64,000 nucleotides of DNA from Psychrobacter glacincola (GTDB lineage Bacteria > Pseudomonadota > Gammaproteobacteria > Pseudomonadales > Moraxellaceae): NCBI GenBank assembly GCA_001411745.2, contig LIQB01000001.1:1-64000 (forward strand), read 5' to 3'. Position numbers and translations under genes: made by a program. Positions 36,104 to 42,841 of the stretch are shown in pieces (the stretch's first letter is position 1; each line of letters begins with the position of its first letter). Below the pieces are notes generated by a model, which saw nothing but the letters and a program-made list of their open reading frames with translations, did no database searches and was not told the origin of the DNA.

Positions 36104-37030
36104 TTAGTTAGTCGCCGCTTCAGCTGATTCTTCTTTCACTTCAACAGCATCATCACCTTCAACCACCATCACTTCTTTTACGTCGGTGGTTGCCACGGCT
36201 TTTTGCGCAGCAGCAGTAGAGCTGGTGCCAAAATAGCTGCCTGTGATTTGGTCATAAGTACCGTTTTCTTTTAATTCAGCCAACGCTTTATTGAACTTAG
36301 CGACCAATGGATCGCCTTTACGAAGCGCGATACCCATGGCATCTTCGTCGGTGCTGATTTCTTGTCCTTTCACTTCATAGTCTTTGCCAGCATCCGTTTT
36401 TAGCCAATCGATGCCAGTGACTTTATCGGACATCATTGCCCGTACGCGACCTGAAGTCAGATCCAGATACGCATTATCTTGGGTATCATAAAGCTTGATA
36501 TCAGCATCTGTATGTTCATCCTGCAAGTACTGTGAAGCGACGGTTGAGCGCTGTGAGGCAATGGGCTGACCTTTTAATGCATCGACGCGAATGTCATCAC
36601 CTTTTTTACCGATCAAGATAATGCCGGTGTGAAAGTACGGGTCAGTGAATTCAACCACTTCTTTACGCTCAGGCGTGATCGACATACCTGCGATAATTGC
36701 ATCGAATTTTTGGGCATTTAGACCAGGAATGAGACCATCCCAATCTTGTGAGATGACTTCACATTTTGCTTTCATTTGTGCACACAGAGCGTCGACCAGC
36801 TCAATCTCATAACCAATTAACTTGCCATCAGCATCGGTATAACTGAACGGCTTATAGCTTGATTCGGTGGCAATTTTTATGTTCATAGGTGCATCGGCTG
36901 TGGTGTCAGCTGCCGCCCCATCTTCTGGCGTGGCGCTATTATTACAACCAGCCAGCATAAGCATCGCGGCACTTAATGGCGCAAGCCAAAGCGCCCTAGT
37001 TTTTAATGATGATGTCATTGATATTGTCAT
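36104..37030 (-). CDS. Amino-acid-binding lipoprotein (SBP family 3), paralogue 2
   Basis: Same family as its neighbours: lipobox LAGC (Cys29), IKIATESSYKPFSYTDADG, GYEIELVDALCAQMKAKCE, SQDWDGLIPGLNAQKFDAIIAGMSITPERKEVVEF. It differs in having an acidic, Val/Glu-rich C-terminal tail of about 30 residues (ending ESAEAATN) beyond the folded domain. The start at 37030 has AAGGA about ten bases upstream. It lies 32 bases after paralogue 3 and 102 before paralogue 1. Its aspartate-for-lysine type differences in the ligand-site region suggest a shifted specificity, but this is inference. Confidence 0.87.
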   Translation of the reverse strand: MTISMTSSLKTRALWLAPLSAAMLMLAGCNNSATPEDGAAADTTADAPMNIKIATESSYKPFSYTDADGKLIGYEIELVDALCAQMKAKCEVISQDWDGLIPGLNAQKFDAIIAGMSITPERKEVVEFTDPYFHTGIILIGKKGDDIRVDALKGQPIASQRSTVASQYLQDEHTDADIKLYDTQDNAYLDLTSGRVRAMMSDKVTGIDWLKTDAGKDYEVKGQEISTDEDAMGIALRKGDPLVAKFNKALAELKENGTYDQITGSYFGTSSTAAAQKAVATTDVKEVMVVEGDDAVEVKEESAEAATN

Positions 37031-37062
37031 GTTTGCTATTCCTTCATTTTTCAATCAGAAGA

Positions 37063-37860
37063 TTATTGACCAAAGTTCGCTTGCTCAAGACGTGCCAGCT
37101 CACCGTTACTACGGATTTCGCTGAGTGCTTTATTAAAGTCGTCTCTGAGTGCGTCACCTTTACGAACAGCAATGGCAATATTGTCGTCATTGTCAATTTC
37201 GTCACCAACGATACCAAAGCCTTCAGGGTTGTCTGCCAACCATGATTTGGCAGAGACTTTTTCCGCCAATACTGCATCGCTACGACCAGACTTTAGATCC
37301 AAATAAGCATTGTCATAATTGTCATACAACTGCACAGTATTGCCGTCTTTGCCTTCATAGTTATCTTGTAAATAAGCGCCAGGCGTGGTTGAACGTTGAC
37401 CACCAAGTGTCAAATTTTTGATCGCCATAGGATCAAAACTGCCTTTGGTATCGGTCAGCCAAACCATCGTATTGGCAAAGTAAGGCTCGGTAAAGTCGAC
37501 TTTTTCTTGACGCTCAGGTGTAATAGACATACCCGCAATCACTGCATCATATTTTTGTGCTAAAAGACCCGGAATAATACCATCCCAATCTTGAGCGACG
37601 ATTTCACATTTGGCTTGCATCTGTTTACACAAGGCATTGGCAACGTCAATATCGTAGCCTGCCAAGCTGCCATCAGCATTGGTGTAGTTAAAAGGAGGGT
37701 AAGCACCTTCGGTCGCGATACGAATGGTCTTGCCAGCCGTTTCTGCTGCAGTGGCGTCAGTGTTGCTATCAGTAGTTTCATTAGCCGGTTGACTACAGGC
37801 GCTCAGCATCAATGCGGCGGTAACGGTCATCGATGACCACAATAGGCGAGAATTCGACAT
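37063..37860 (-). CDS. Amino-acid-binding lipoprotein (SBP family 3), paralogue 3
   Basis: The first of the three tandem binding proteins. The start at 37860 (MSNSRLL) is preceded by AAGGA with seven bases spacing. Further upstream in-frame starts would bury the signal peptide and are rejected. The lipobox is LSAC (Cys22). The domain reads IRIATEGAYPPFNYTNADG, GYDIDVANALCKQMQAKCE and AQDWDGIIPGLLAQKYDAVIAGMSITPER. It is the shortest copy (265 residues) and has no C-terminal tail. It follows the ATPase gene by 314 bases, with a hairpin between. Confidence 0.87.
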   Translation of the reverse strand: MSNSRLLWSSMTVTAALMLSACSQPANETTDSNTDATAAETAGKTIRIATEGAYPPFNYTNADGSLAGYDIDVANALCKQMQAKCEIVAQDWDGIIPGLLAQKYDAVIAGMSITPERQEKVDFTEPYFANTMVWLTDTKGSFDPMAIKNLTLGGQRSTTPGAYLQDNYEGKDGNTVQLYDNYDNAYLDLKSGRSDAVLAEKVSAKSWLADNPEGFGIVGDEIDNDDNIAIAVRKGDALRDDFNKALSEIRSNGELARLEQANFGQ

Positions 37861-38116
37861 CATACATTCCTTAAATTCTGATGGGTTTTTAATGTAGGGT
37901 TCTGATATTTTGTTCTCTGACGTCCCTGCCAGACAAGCAATATAGATAGCAGAATACACAAGCAGCCGTCATTATCGACCACCTGTAAACCTTTTGATAA
38001 TACCTGAGTAAAATATCAAAAACAAACGTTTTACATACCGACTGTTATTAACGAGTAATAAACGGTCAACGCTGCTTACTAAGCAGTAATTTTATGCTTA
38101 AGATAAAATGACGATA

Positions 38117-38139
38117 GGGTGGTAAGAATATTACCACCC
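38117..38139. terminator. Hairpin between the ABC ATPase and binding-protein genes
   Basis: GGGTGGTAA and TTACCACCC pair around five bases. The T-run (ATTTTTG) is on the plus strand only, so on the transcribed minus strand it may attenuate or protect the RNA instead of terminating. Confidence 0.45.
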
Positions 38140-38174
38140 CATTTTTGCATATAAAACGGATACTAAATACGAGG

Positions 38175-38972
38175 CTAGTTCTGACGATGCGATGCCATAA
38201 AGTCTTTGACACGCTCAGAGGTAGGATTATCAAAAACTTGCTCGGGCGTGCCAATCTCTTCAATCACGCCTTGATGCAAGAACACCACTTTGCTTGATAC
38301 TTCTCTCGCAAAACGCATCTCATGGGTGACGATAAGCATAGTACGCCCCTCTTCTGCCAACTCACGCATGACGGCGAGCACTTCATTGACCAGTTCAGGA
38401 TCTAAGGCTGAGGTTGGCTCATCGAATAGCAGCACTTGTGGCTGCATGGCAAGCGCACGGGCAATCGCCACACGCTGACGCTGACCGCCAGATAAATTCG
38501 CTGGATAAGCGTCTTTTTTATCAAGCAAACCGACTTTATCGAGCAGCTTTTCAGCATCGCTAATGGCTTGATCTTTTTTAATCTTTAAAACTTGCGTTGG
38601 TCCTTCGATGATGTTTTGCAAAATCGTTTTGTGCGGCCACAAGTTAAAGTTTTGGAAGACAAAACCCACGCGCGCGCGCAAGTTTTCCAATTGCTTAATA
38701 TCGACCGCTTGCAGCTCACCTGACTTGGCAGGCTTGAGCATCAGCTCATCATTACCGATAATAATACGACCTTGATTGGGCTTTTCGAGCAAATTAATGC
38801 AGCGCAGCAAGGTAGATTTACCTGAGCCTGATGAGCCCAAAATAGAGATGACATCACCGTCATATGCAGTAAGGGACACTCCTTTTAGCACTGCCAATGA
38901 GCCATAGCTTTTATGGACGTCTTGTAAATCTAAGGCGATAGGCCGAGTCGGATCTTTTGCAATATCAAGCAT
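38175..38972 (-). CDS. Basic/polar amino-acid ABC transporter ATP-binding protein (HisP/ArtP-like)
   Basis: A 265-residue ATPase with Walker [10 protein letters not shown] and Q-loop [17 protein letters not shown]. The signature is [19 protein letters not shown], Walker B is [14 protein letters not shown] and the switch histidine lies in VTHEMRFA. The HisP-type segment around [18 protein letters not shown] is present. It is transcribed first in the locus, ahead of three binding proteins and (after a break) two permeases. A 32-bp palindrome lies about 90 bases upstream of its start. Confidence 0.88.
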
Positions 38973-41430: not shown

Positions 41431-41481
41431 CGTCTTATCGCTTAGCCTATCATCCACTCTCTGATTTAACGTATAATCCAC

Positions 41482-41514
41482 AAAAAAACGCCAGCTCAAT
41501 TGCTGGCGTTTTTT
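41482..41514 (+). terminator. proA terminator
   Basis: AAAAAACGCCAGC and GCTGGCGTTTTTT form a 13-bp perfect stem with a six-base loop and a T-run. Confidence 0.9.
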
Positions 41515-41611
41515 AGTAGTGTCAAATATGTTATATATGCGGTATTAAAACTATGTATATGATAGAAGTCATGCGGCACGATAACAAAACAGGCGATAGG
41601 AAAGTGGGCTT

Positions 41612-42382
41612 ATGCAGAGTGGTAAAATCAAGCACTGGAATTCAGATAAAGGCTATGGCTTTATCGATGTAGACAACCAAAGTGAAGACGTGTTTTTTCA
41701 TGTGAGTAAAGTGCAATTATCACAGCCGATAACCATCGGTCAAAGCGTCTATTTTAATAGTGAGCGTAATGATAAAAACCAACTACGAGCCACTGAAGTC
41801 ACTTCCAACGAATTGAGTATTTTAGCCGCTCCAGACTCAAATATAACCAATCACCATTCAAATACTAACAGCCGAAACAACTCTACTGATAATAACAAAA
41901 ACCCGCGACACACTACCCGTGACAATCGCCATAGTCAGCGTGGCAACCAAAACAAGAGAAGCTTAGGCTCTACCCTATTTAGTTTGATTGCCCTTATTGC
42001 CGTTGCTGTTTACTTTTTTGGTGATTTGTCGTCTGGGTTTTTGACCGATAGTATTGACCCAACGACGGTATCACAAACCTCATCAGAGGCACAGCCAGCA
42101 AAGACAAGCGGCGTCACGGGCGATGCTCAGATAGACAATACCATTGCCCTTATACAACGAGGCGGGCCTTTTCCTTATCCTCATAAAGATGGCACGACAT
42201 TTTATAATCGTGAGGGCAGATTGCCCACGCAGTCGCAAGGCTACTACCGCGAATATACCGTGCCGACCCCTGGCGTGTCACATCGCGGTGCACGGCGTAT
42301 CGTCACAGGTGGTCATCCGCCGACTGTGTATTACTTGACCGTTGATCACTATGATAGCTTTCGCAGACTGGACGTAAAATAA
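41612..42382 (+). CDS. Cold-shock domain / membrane span / RNase Sa-type ribonuclease fusion
   Basis: The 256-residue protein has three parts. Residues 1-66 are a cold-shock domain with RNP1 KGYGFID and RNP2 VFFHVS. An Asn/Arg-rich disordered stretch (about 75-122) leads to one membrane span (about 124-146, LFSLIALIAVAVYFFGDL). After a linker, residues 180-256 match microbial ribonucleases of the N1/T1/Sa family: GGPFPYPHKDGTTFYNREG, LPTQSQGYYREYTVPTPG, RRIVTG, VDHY. Residues matching the RNase Sa catalytic set are Glu214 (Sa Glu54), Arg225 (Arg65), Arg229 (Arg69) and His246 (His85), so activity is likely. With an N-in topology the nuclease would face the periplasm. The inhibitor gene follows after one base. 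I know barnase and RNase Sa as secreted enzymes, so a cold-shock-domain-tethered form is unusual. Confidence 0.85.
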   Translation: MQSGKIKHWNSDKGYGFIDVDNQSEDVFFHVSKVQLSQPITIGQSVYFNSERNDKNQLRATEVTSNELSILAAPDSNITNHHSNTNSRNNSTDNNKNPRHTTRDNRHSQRGNQNKRSLGSTLFSLIALIAVAVYFFGDLSSGFLTDSIDPTTVSQTSSEAQPAKTSGVTGDAQIDNTIALIQRGGPFPYPHKDGTTFYNREGRLPTQSQGYYREYTVPTPGVSHRGARRIVTGGHPPTVYYLTVDHYDSFRRLDVK

Positions 42383-42383
42383 T

Positions 42384-42752
42384 ATGAGTAAAGCCATCCA
42401 CTATATTAATCTGGGTTTTGACCAAGATATTAACCAAAAAACTACAGCACTAAATGCTAGCATGCCCGCTCAGACTGTTAACATACCTATAAACGAGATA
42501 CTTAATAAAACCACATTATTAACAAACTTAGCCAATGCCTGTGATTTTCCCAGCTATTTTTCACATAACTGGGATAGCGCATGGGACTGTTTAACGGACA
42601 GCGAAGTGACTCACCTGATGCTGGATCTAACAGCGGTGAAAAAAATAAACACCGAAGATTTTAATGTTTTCAAAAGCGTCATTGAAGATGCCTACAGAGA
42701 TTTTGGCAAGCCGCAATTATGGGTTATTATGCCGTCCGTGGATGATGCCTAG
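42384..42752 (+). CDS. Barstar family ribonuclease inhibitor
   Basis: A 122-residue cytoplasmic protein. The barstar helix segment LANACDFPSYFSHNWDSAWDCLTD carries the Asn-Trp-Asp and Trp-Asp residues typical of barnase/RNase Sa contacts. Earlier VNIPINEILNKTTLLTNL and the final strand PQLWVIMP complete the fold. The ATG lies one base after the stop codon of the ribonuclease gene, so the pair is translationally coupled and stoichiometry is controlled. It most likely shields the cytoplasm from the RNase domain before membrane insertion. The family call is based on this pattern and on the neighbour. Confidence 0.85.
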   Translation: MSKAIHYINLGFDQDINQKTTALNASMPAQTVNIPINEILNKTTLLTNLANACDFPSYFSHNWDSAWDCLTDSEVTHLMLDLTAVKKINTEDFNVFKSVIEDAYRDFGKPQLWVIMPSVDDA

Positions 42753-42770
42753 TCGCCAATCACCACACAA

Positions 42771-42812
42771 ACCTGAATTCGAGATAAAACCATATTTATC
42801 CCGAATTCAGGT
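42771..42812 (+). terminator. Terminator of the ribonuclease-barstar operon
   Basis: ACCTGAATTCG-a-GATAAA pairs with TTTATC-c-CGAATTCAGGT (one mismatch), followed by TAATTTATTTTTAT. Confidence 0.75.
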
Positions 42813-42841
42813 TAATTTATTTTTATAGAAAGGATTAATAT

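Follow-up and report, generated by a model that had tools for sequence, protein, structure and literature searches.

Enzymes of the RNase Sa family are small and secreted, and bacterial cold-shock domains (CSDs) are regarded as cytoplasmic RNA chaperones. The locus described here lies in the window, a stretch of 64,000 nucleotides of Psychrobacter glacincola DNA, where one gene fuses a CSD, a linker, a membrane segment, and an RNase Sa-type domain and is followed by a barstar-family gene. It resembles the simple barnase-barstar pairs, which are named as such in the excerpts of PMC3482391, in that a guanyl-type RNase gene precedes a barstar gene and the RNase is predicted to be exported; within what those excerpts describe, the likeness extends to the absence of a delivery module and of notable polymorphism. 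In its plain relatives, the N terminus is short and signal- or anchor-like. Here, by contrast, the membrane segment comes after a CSD of approximately 66 residues and a linker of 50 residues, and the prediction is for the RNase to remain membrane-bound. The fold and catalytic residues are shared with RNases Sa, Sa2, and Sa3 (48–57% identity over the aligned stretch), but unlike the members of that family, the RNase here is fused and predicted to be anchored. CSD-DUF1294 membrane proteins also have an N-terminal CSD ahead of membrane segments; they differ from the fusion in having several hydrophobic segments after the CSD and no RNase. Periplasmic RNase I (RNase T2) would fill the same RNA-degrading role, though it belongs to a different protein family.

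No precedent for the CSD–membrane segment–RNase layout was found in searches of open-licence PMC papers. The term "cold shock" was not found in the excerpted text of PMC3482391, and the CSDs in the excerpts of PMC11090510 belong to GTPase-based systems, unlike the CSD-RNase fusion. An initial annotation of this DNA had stated that it knew of no described system with this domain order. The searches of open-licence papers likewise showed none, but in sequence databases the architecture is common and has received automatic names such as "guanyl-specific ribonuclease Sa/cold shock CspA family protein". The CSD-RNase fusion is a real, conserved domain architecture.

The fusion gene (positions 41612–42382, + strand; assigned from the open reading frame, Pfam, homology, and the structure model) encodes 256 residues, and its product is 98% identical to the P. 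immobilis 1617 fusion. All features described below are also on the + strand. The CSD (residues 3–64, 41618–41803) matches Pfam PF00313 at 49.3 bits (cut-off 27), and the nearest solved sequence to the N terminus is CspB. The following linker (residues 67–116, 41810–41959) contains 12 Asn and 6 Arg in 50 residues and is predicted to be disordered, as judged from pLDDT, dN/dS, and composition. The single hydrophobic segment (residues 118–136, 41963–42019), with a mean Kyte-Doolittle value of 2.23, is predicted from hydropathy and charge bias to cross the membrane with the N terminus inside and the C terminus outside. The RNase Sa-type domain (residues 169–253, 42116–42370; Pfam, conservation, and Foldseek) matches Pfam PF00545 at 74.5 bits (cut-off 24), the nearest solved sequence being RNase Sa3 (1mgr, E 9.3e-24). 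Glu214, Arg225, Arg229, and His246, which align with RNase Sa/Sa3, are taken here as the catalytic positions, and Glu201 as the guanine-site Glu. These five residues are identical in all 47 aligned fusions, a set obtained by clustering at least 200 listed proteins at 78% into 54, one of which was replaced by the window protein, omitting eight CSD-less proteins, and adding one locus protein. Pfam, hydropathy, and the structure model thus agree with the initial annotation, which had described this domain order in one frame and had placed the four catalytic residues at the same numbers. It had also called the RNase domain complete. The Pfam match, however, starts at profile position 17 of 98, so that the N-terminal strand is left without homology coverage.

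AlphaFold2 on the 47 aligned fusions gave confident CSD and RNase blocks (block pLDDT mostly above 90; 96–98 across residues 1–60 of the CSD). A helix at residues 122–140 was modeled with low to moderate confidence, and the linkers are disordered in the model, with pLDDT mostly below 50 from residue 74. Foldseek recovered both folds. The CSD model matched cold-shock proteins (e.g., 1hzb, TMt 0.83), and ranks 1–30 for the RNase model were all RNase Sa, Sa2, or Sa3 at rmsd values of 0.9–1.5, the two best matches (RNase Sa2/Sa3) having an rmsd of 1.1 and 49–56% identity.

The ATG of the barstar-family gene (42384–42752, 122 residues; Pfam, conserved residues, and Foldseek) stands one base after the stop codon of the fusion, as the initial annotation had noted. 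The gene product matches Pfam PF01337 at 49.2 bits (cut-off 23.4), whereas its matches to solved sequences are weak (best E 0.035). Foldseek ranks 1–18 for the barstar model were all barstar chains with modest scores (E 0.0076–0.038, TMq 0.35–0.48; TMt 0.59 for the best match, at E 0.0076), which gives moderate support for a barstar fold of the downstream protein. Asn62, Trp63, Trp67, and Asp68 occur in 31 of 31 barstar sequences, and Asp64 in 30, with Glu in the remaining one. Asp64 and Asp68 form a DxxxD motif, which is given for Imm-Barstar in the excerpts of PMC3482391.

The two genes lie between an aldehyde-dehydrogenase-family gene upstream (Pfam) and the sodium/glutamate symporter gene gltS downstream. 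We take the upstream gene to be proA. A hairpin with a T-run after proA (41480–41517; −21.4 kcal/mol, z −6.7) resembles an intrinsic terminator and marks the upstream border of the unit. A long terminator-like hairpin with a T-rich tail follows the barstar gene (42770–42826), of which 42770–42813 folds at −22.4 kcal/mol (z −9.2), in line with the strong terminator claimed earlier. A pattern-based scan of the locus reported neither of these hairpins. With hairpins flanking both sides, the fusion and barstar genes look like a transcription unit of their own. A promoter scan gave nine promoter-like sites against 4.0 in shuffled sequences, with no site on the + strand before the fusion start codon. 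Near proA and gltS, the window also contains an ABC ATPase gene and a side-by-side pair of genes for family-3 solute-binding proteins (36104–38972).

The locus is probably a two-gene unit, in which the fusion is an inner-membrane-anchored periplasmic housekeeping ribonuclease and the barstar is its cytoplasmic safety catch. An inner-membrane anchor would hold the CSD of the fusion product in the cytoplasm and the RNase in the periplasm, where the RNase domain would likely degrade RNA as a housekeeping enzyme. Barstar is known to bind barnase that has folded in the cytoplasm before export, and the barstar here would bind the ribonuclease in the same manner. The CSD may bind RNA, either its own mRNA or another, at the inner membrane face and thereby might help in the synthesis or placement of the enzyme, the least supported of these steps. 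On the best reading, the CSD is an accessory part with a putative role of this kind, and it is absent in P. celer. Functionally, the module most likely represents a simple barnase-barstar pair in membrane-anchored form.

The RNase family is present in 83 of 105 Psychrobacter genomes, and barstar is found in the same 83, the two matches adjoining each other in every case. This adjacency, together with the charge bias of all 47 fusions described below, upholds the initial view of a linked, membrane-tethered RNase-barstar pair with a nuclease predicted to face the periplasm. The other 22 genomes have no barstar match at E 0.001, which indicates that the module is dispensable to the genus. Nine extra barstar matches in the genus are not beside an RNase. 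A database search for the CSD-RNase architecture with an adjacent barstar, which the initial annotation had proposed as a check, found it in most of the Psychrobacter genomes examined and, outside the genus, in one of the genomes sampled (G495).

Fifty-eight Psychrobacter loci were compared. A full-length fusion frame is present in 54, one is cut by a contig end (L060), and in three the CSD is interrupted or missing (L013, L061, and L062). L013 has shortened neighbors and lacks the barstar frame, irregularities that may be sequence error; in the other 57 loci, the barstar frame adjoins the RNase. Overlaps of 32 or 41 bases between RNase and barstar are artefacts of taking the first start codon. 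In a set of 30 loci overlapping the 58 (L078–L107), the frame is full length in 27; among the other 53 RNase matches in the genus, those of the window, G072, and G087 were looked at singly. The genomic site is largely constant, with proA upstream in 56 of the 58 loci (once at a distance of 3.2 kb) and gltS downstream in 51.

Selection on the module was estimated by the pairwise Nei-Gojobori method for 45 sequences with all four genes, L013, L036, L055, and L060–L062 having been omitted beforehand. Pairs were restricted to dS values of 0.05–1.2, leaving 184 to 381 of 990 pairs depending on the segment. The median dN/dS values are 0.06 for the RNase, 0.11 for the CSD, 0.13 for the membrane segment, and 0.17 for barstar, with 0.58 and 0.48 for the linkers, 0.04 for proA, and 0.02 for gltS. 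The RNase and the CSD are under purifying selection, and the low ratios are more in keeping with an enzyme at work in the cell than with an arms race. The Spearman correlations of pairwise dN are 0.43 for RNase-barstar, 0.52 for RNase-gltS, and 0.40 for RNase-CSD. Since the first is no higher than the second, this comparison is uninformative about a special co-evolution of RNase and barstar.

The residues of the CSD should be noted, since they bear on whether the domain has a role related to RNA. Both RNP motifs, KGYGFI and VFFHV, are present, and the earlier description of RNP1 and RNP2 as intact is nearly right. However, alignment with the three small Csp proteins of the same genome shows that the Trp of KWFN is replaced by His (His8, followed by Trp9) and the aromatic residue after the RNP2 His by Val (Val31). 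Across the 47 fusions, the KWFN Trp position is occupied by His in 39, Tyr in four, Lys in three, and Asn in one, and never by Trp. Tyr15, Phe29, and His30 are conserved in all 47, and Phe17 and Phe28 in 46. We assume that Tyr15, Phe17, Phe28, and His30, like the KWFN Trp and the aromatic residue after the RNP2 His, are nucleic-acid-binding positions of RNP1/RNP2.

The CSD might be no more than a folded tail at the N terminus, preceding a signal anchor and without any role related to RNA, a doubtful reading that keeps some chance of being right and is compatible with the preferred explanation in all but its CSD step. The lack of the KWFN Trp in every fusion speaks for such a tail, and so do the natural variants. 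In P. celer (L062, 5016–5516), the CSD is gone in frame, so that the first residues of the family run straight into the pre-membrane linker, while the membrane segment, the RNase, and barstar are kept; the CSD is therefore dispensable for retention of the RNase. In L061/L102 and L101, the CSD or the linker is interrupted while the RNase frame stays open. Against this reading, the dN/dS of the CSD is low, the other five conserved positions are retained in nearly all the fusions, and the domain occurs in Psychrobacter, Cardiobacteriaceae, and metagenome branches, although these rows had been selected on the presence of a CSD.

A stronger role for the CSD is rather unlikely. In such transmembrane RNA handling, the cytoplasmic CSD and the periplasmic RNase, being parts of one polypeptide, would link the binding of RNA in the cytoplasm with its destruction beyond the inner membrane, so that the state of cytoplasmic RNA or cold would control an envelope ribonuclease, or the mRNA of the enzyme would gather at the translocon.

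The topology bears on a further alternative. All 47 aligned fusions have a hydrophobic segment with a score of at least 1.4, and in every one the 25 residues before the segment carry a more positive net charge than the 25 after it (mean +4.6 and −2.2, respectively). From this bias in charge across the one hydrophobic segment, the CSD is predicted to lie inside and the RNase outside the inner membrane, an N-in/C-out topology in all 47. A fusion with both domains at the inner membrane face, where the CSD would present mRNA to the RNase and barstar would set the activity of a regulatory or stress ribonuclease, is distinctly unlikely in view of this bias. The combination of an RNA-binding-type domain with an RNase in one chain does suggest substrate delivery, and both domains are conserved. 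However, P. celer has kept the RNase while lacking the CSD, and segments resembling signals or anchors are found in plain relatives.

Genomes without the fusion were examined at 23 proA sites, those of the 22 module-less genomes and of G072; the site of G062 is cut by a contig end. No site gives a match to the fusion at E 1e-4, and gltS is within 1.5 kb of proA at 15 of them. At two sites (L144 and L150), a barstar remnant lies between proA and gltS without an RNase. This is the order of decay expected when the toxin is lost first from a selfish toxin-antitoxin (addiction) or abortive-infection module, and the CSD also matches a retron-effector model and PADLOC CSD_V. We consider such a module very improbable, because the chromosomal site is fixed, the RNase is predicted to be exported, dN/dS is low, and mobile-element records give no support. 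Among 50,697 phage records, none matched the query, and none of the 19 partial matches among plasmid records covers more than 80% of it; a mobile-element origin was rejected on these grounds. Assignment as a retron effector or listed defense gene was also rejected, the score against the retron Se72 effector model being 30.6 bits (cut-off 82). PADLOC CSD_V gave 35.7 bits for the fusion CSD alone, and the barstar gene had no match in PADLOC or NCBIfam.

One RNase-positive genome of the genus, G072, lacks the fusion and carries such an RNase in a 1469-residue frame followed by a barstar match below cut-off (L143, G072:C1:3104741–3105270); this long frame looks like a polymorphic toxin. That the fusion itself is a toxin-immunity module against other cells, whether polymorphic or contact-dependent, is the least probable reading despite G072 and the toxin-then-immunity gene order discussed for polymorphic toxins in the excerpts of PMC3482391, since the fusion has only a CSD, a linker, and one hydrophobic segment and no delivery domain, no delivery family was found by Pfam in the 13 neighboring ORFs scanned, and an RNase dN/dS of 0.06 over 45 sequences at a fixed site contrasts with the exchange of C-terminal toxin cassettes. 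The same scan agrees with the initial statement that no toxin-delivery gene is nearby. Contact-dependent entry into neighboring cells, which had also been raised, is not supported; the initial suggestion of a host-cell function, as opposed to a weapon, is favored by the fixed site, the purifying selection, and the lack of a delivery family nearby.

The module was also considered in relation to its homologs outside Psychrobacter. In the host family, the RNase family occurs in two further genomes of 348, as a plain 122-residue RNase adjoining barstar in G337 and within a 2144-residue frame in G148. In a class sample of 369 genomes, 12 others have RNase-side matches; G495 has a CSD-RNase fusion with barstar two bases away, and the other 11 showed no CSD. 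In the order of G495, two of 32 genomes carry the fusion, both from one genus of Cardiobacteriaceae (G495 and G718). The fusion of G718 is the same 225-residue protein as that of Cardiobacteriaceae bacterium TAE3-ERU3; it retains the active-site residues and is followed by a tRNA-Gly gene (L134, 1501–2178). The whole G718 genome gives no barstar match at E 0.001, and the persistence of its fusion without a detectable barstar suggests that barstar is not always needed. In a phylum sample of 398 genomes, searched at an E limit of 1e-10 under which a match to the CSD would go unnoticed, 27 have RNase-side matches besides the window genome and G495; the 19 of these that were checked singly showed no CSD.

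The 48 fusion rows, which had been picked for having a CSD, fall into a single clade (96/93) in a tree built from 87 RNase domains (91 columns, with many open forks). The clade comprises Psychrobacter, Cardiobacteriaceae, and metagenome branches; L134 and P0242 are identical, and the CSD-less P. celer was not among the rows. P0253, P0255, and P0259 represent a further deep fusion lineage, known here solely from metagenome proteins. The clade lies next to plain RNases of other Pseudomonadota, including G337. A barstar frame is present in all 41 examined loci of plain relatives, 32 of them inside the adjacency limits, the adjacency of the other nine being affected by the choice of ORF start. Nearly all plain relatives have an N-terminal hydrophobic stretch. 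Since the plain relatives are paired with barstar, the RNase-barstar pairing appears to predate the CSD. The CSD itself was seemingly acquired a single time, at the cytoplasmic end, after which the fusion may have passed from one family to another or been lost widely.

As for the source of the CSD, borrowing from CSD-DUF1294 proteins was rejected, because neither the Csp rows nor the rows of CSD-membrane proteins grouped with the fusion CSDs in a weak tree of 17 of the 48 fusions (68 columns). The window genome encodes a second CSD-membrane protein on contig C11 (L112, 1030–1731), presumably DUF1294-like, whose CSD stands apart from the fusion CSDs in that tree. CSDs joined to membrane segments seem to be a wider theme.

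RNase I, the RNase T2 family enzyme of Escherichia coli, degrades RNA in the periplasm. RNase T2 was found in only one of the 105 Psychrobacter genomes by a search that was positive in the E. coli and Caulobacter controls. Its near absence suggests that the fusion may be a main periplasmic RNase of Psychrobacter. The 22 module-less genomes also have no RNase T2 match, which suggests that the function is dispensable and that RNase T2 is not a simple replacement.

In this locus, a CSD was built, apparently once, onto an anchored RNase predicted to face the periplasm, and the result is kept under purifying selection across most of a genus that has cold-living members and in which the RNase I family is nearly absent. 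The parts lend themselves to separate testing, as natural variants lack either the CSD (P. celer) or barstar (G718). If the periplasmic reading is true, the fusion would be an unusual ribonuclease of the cell envelope, not a weapon.
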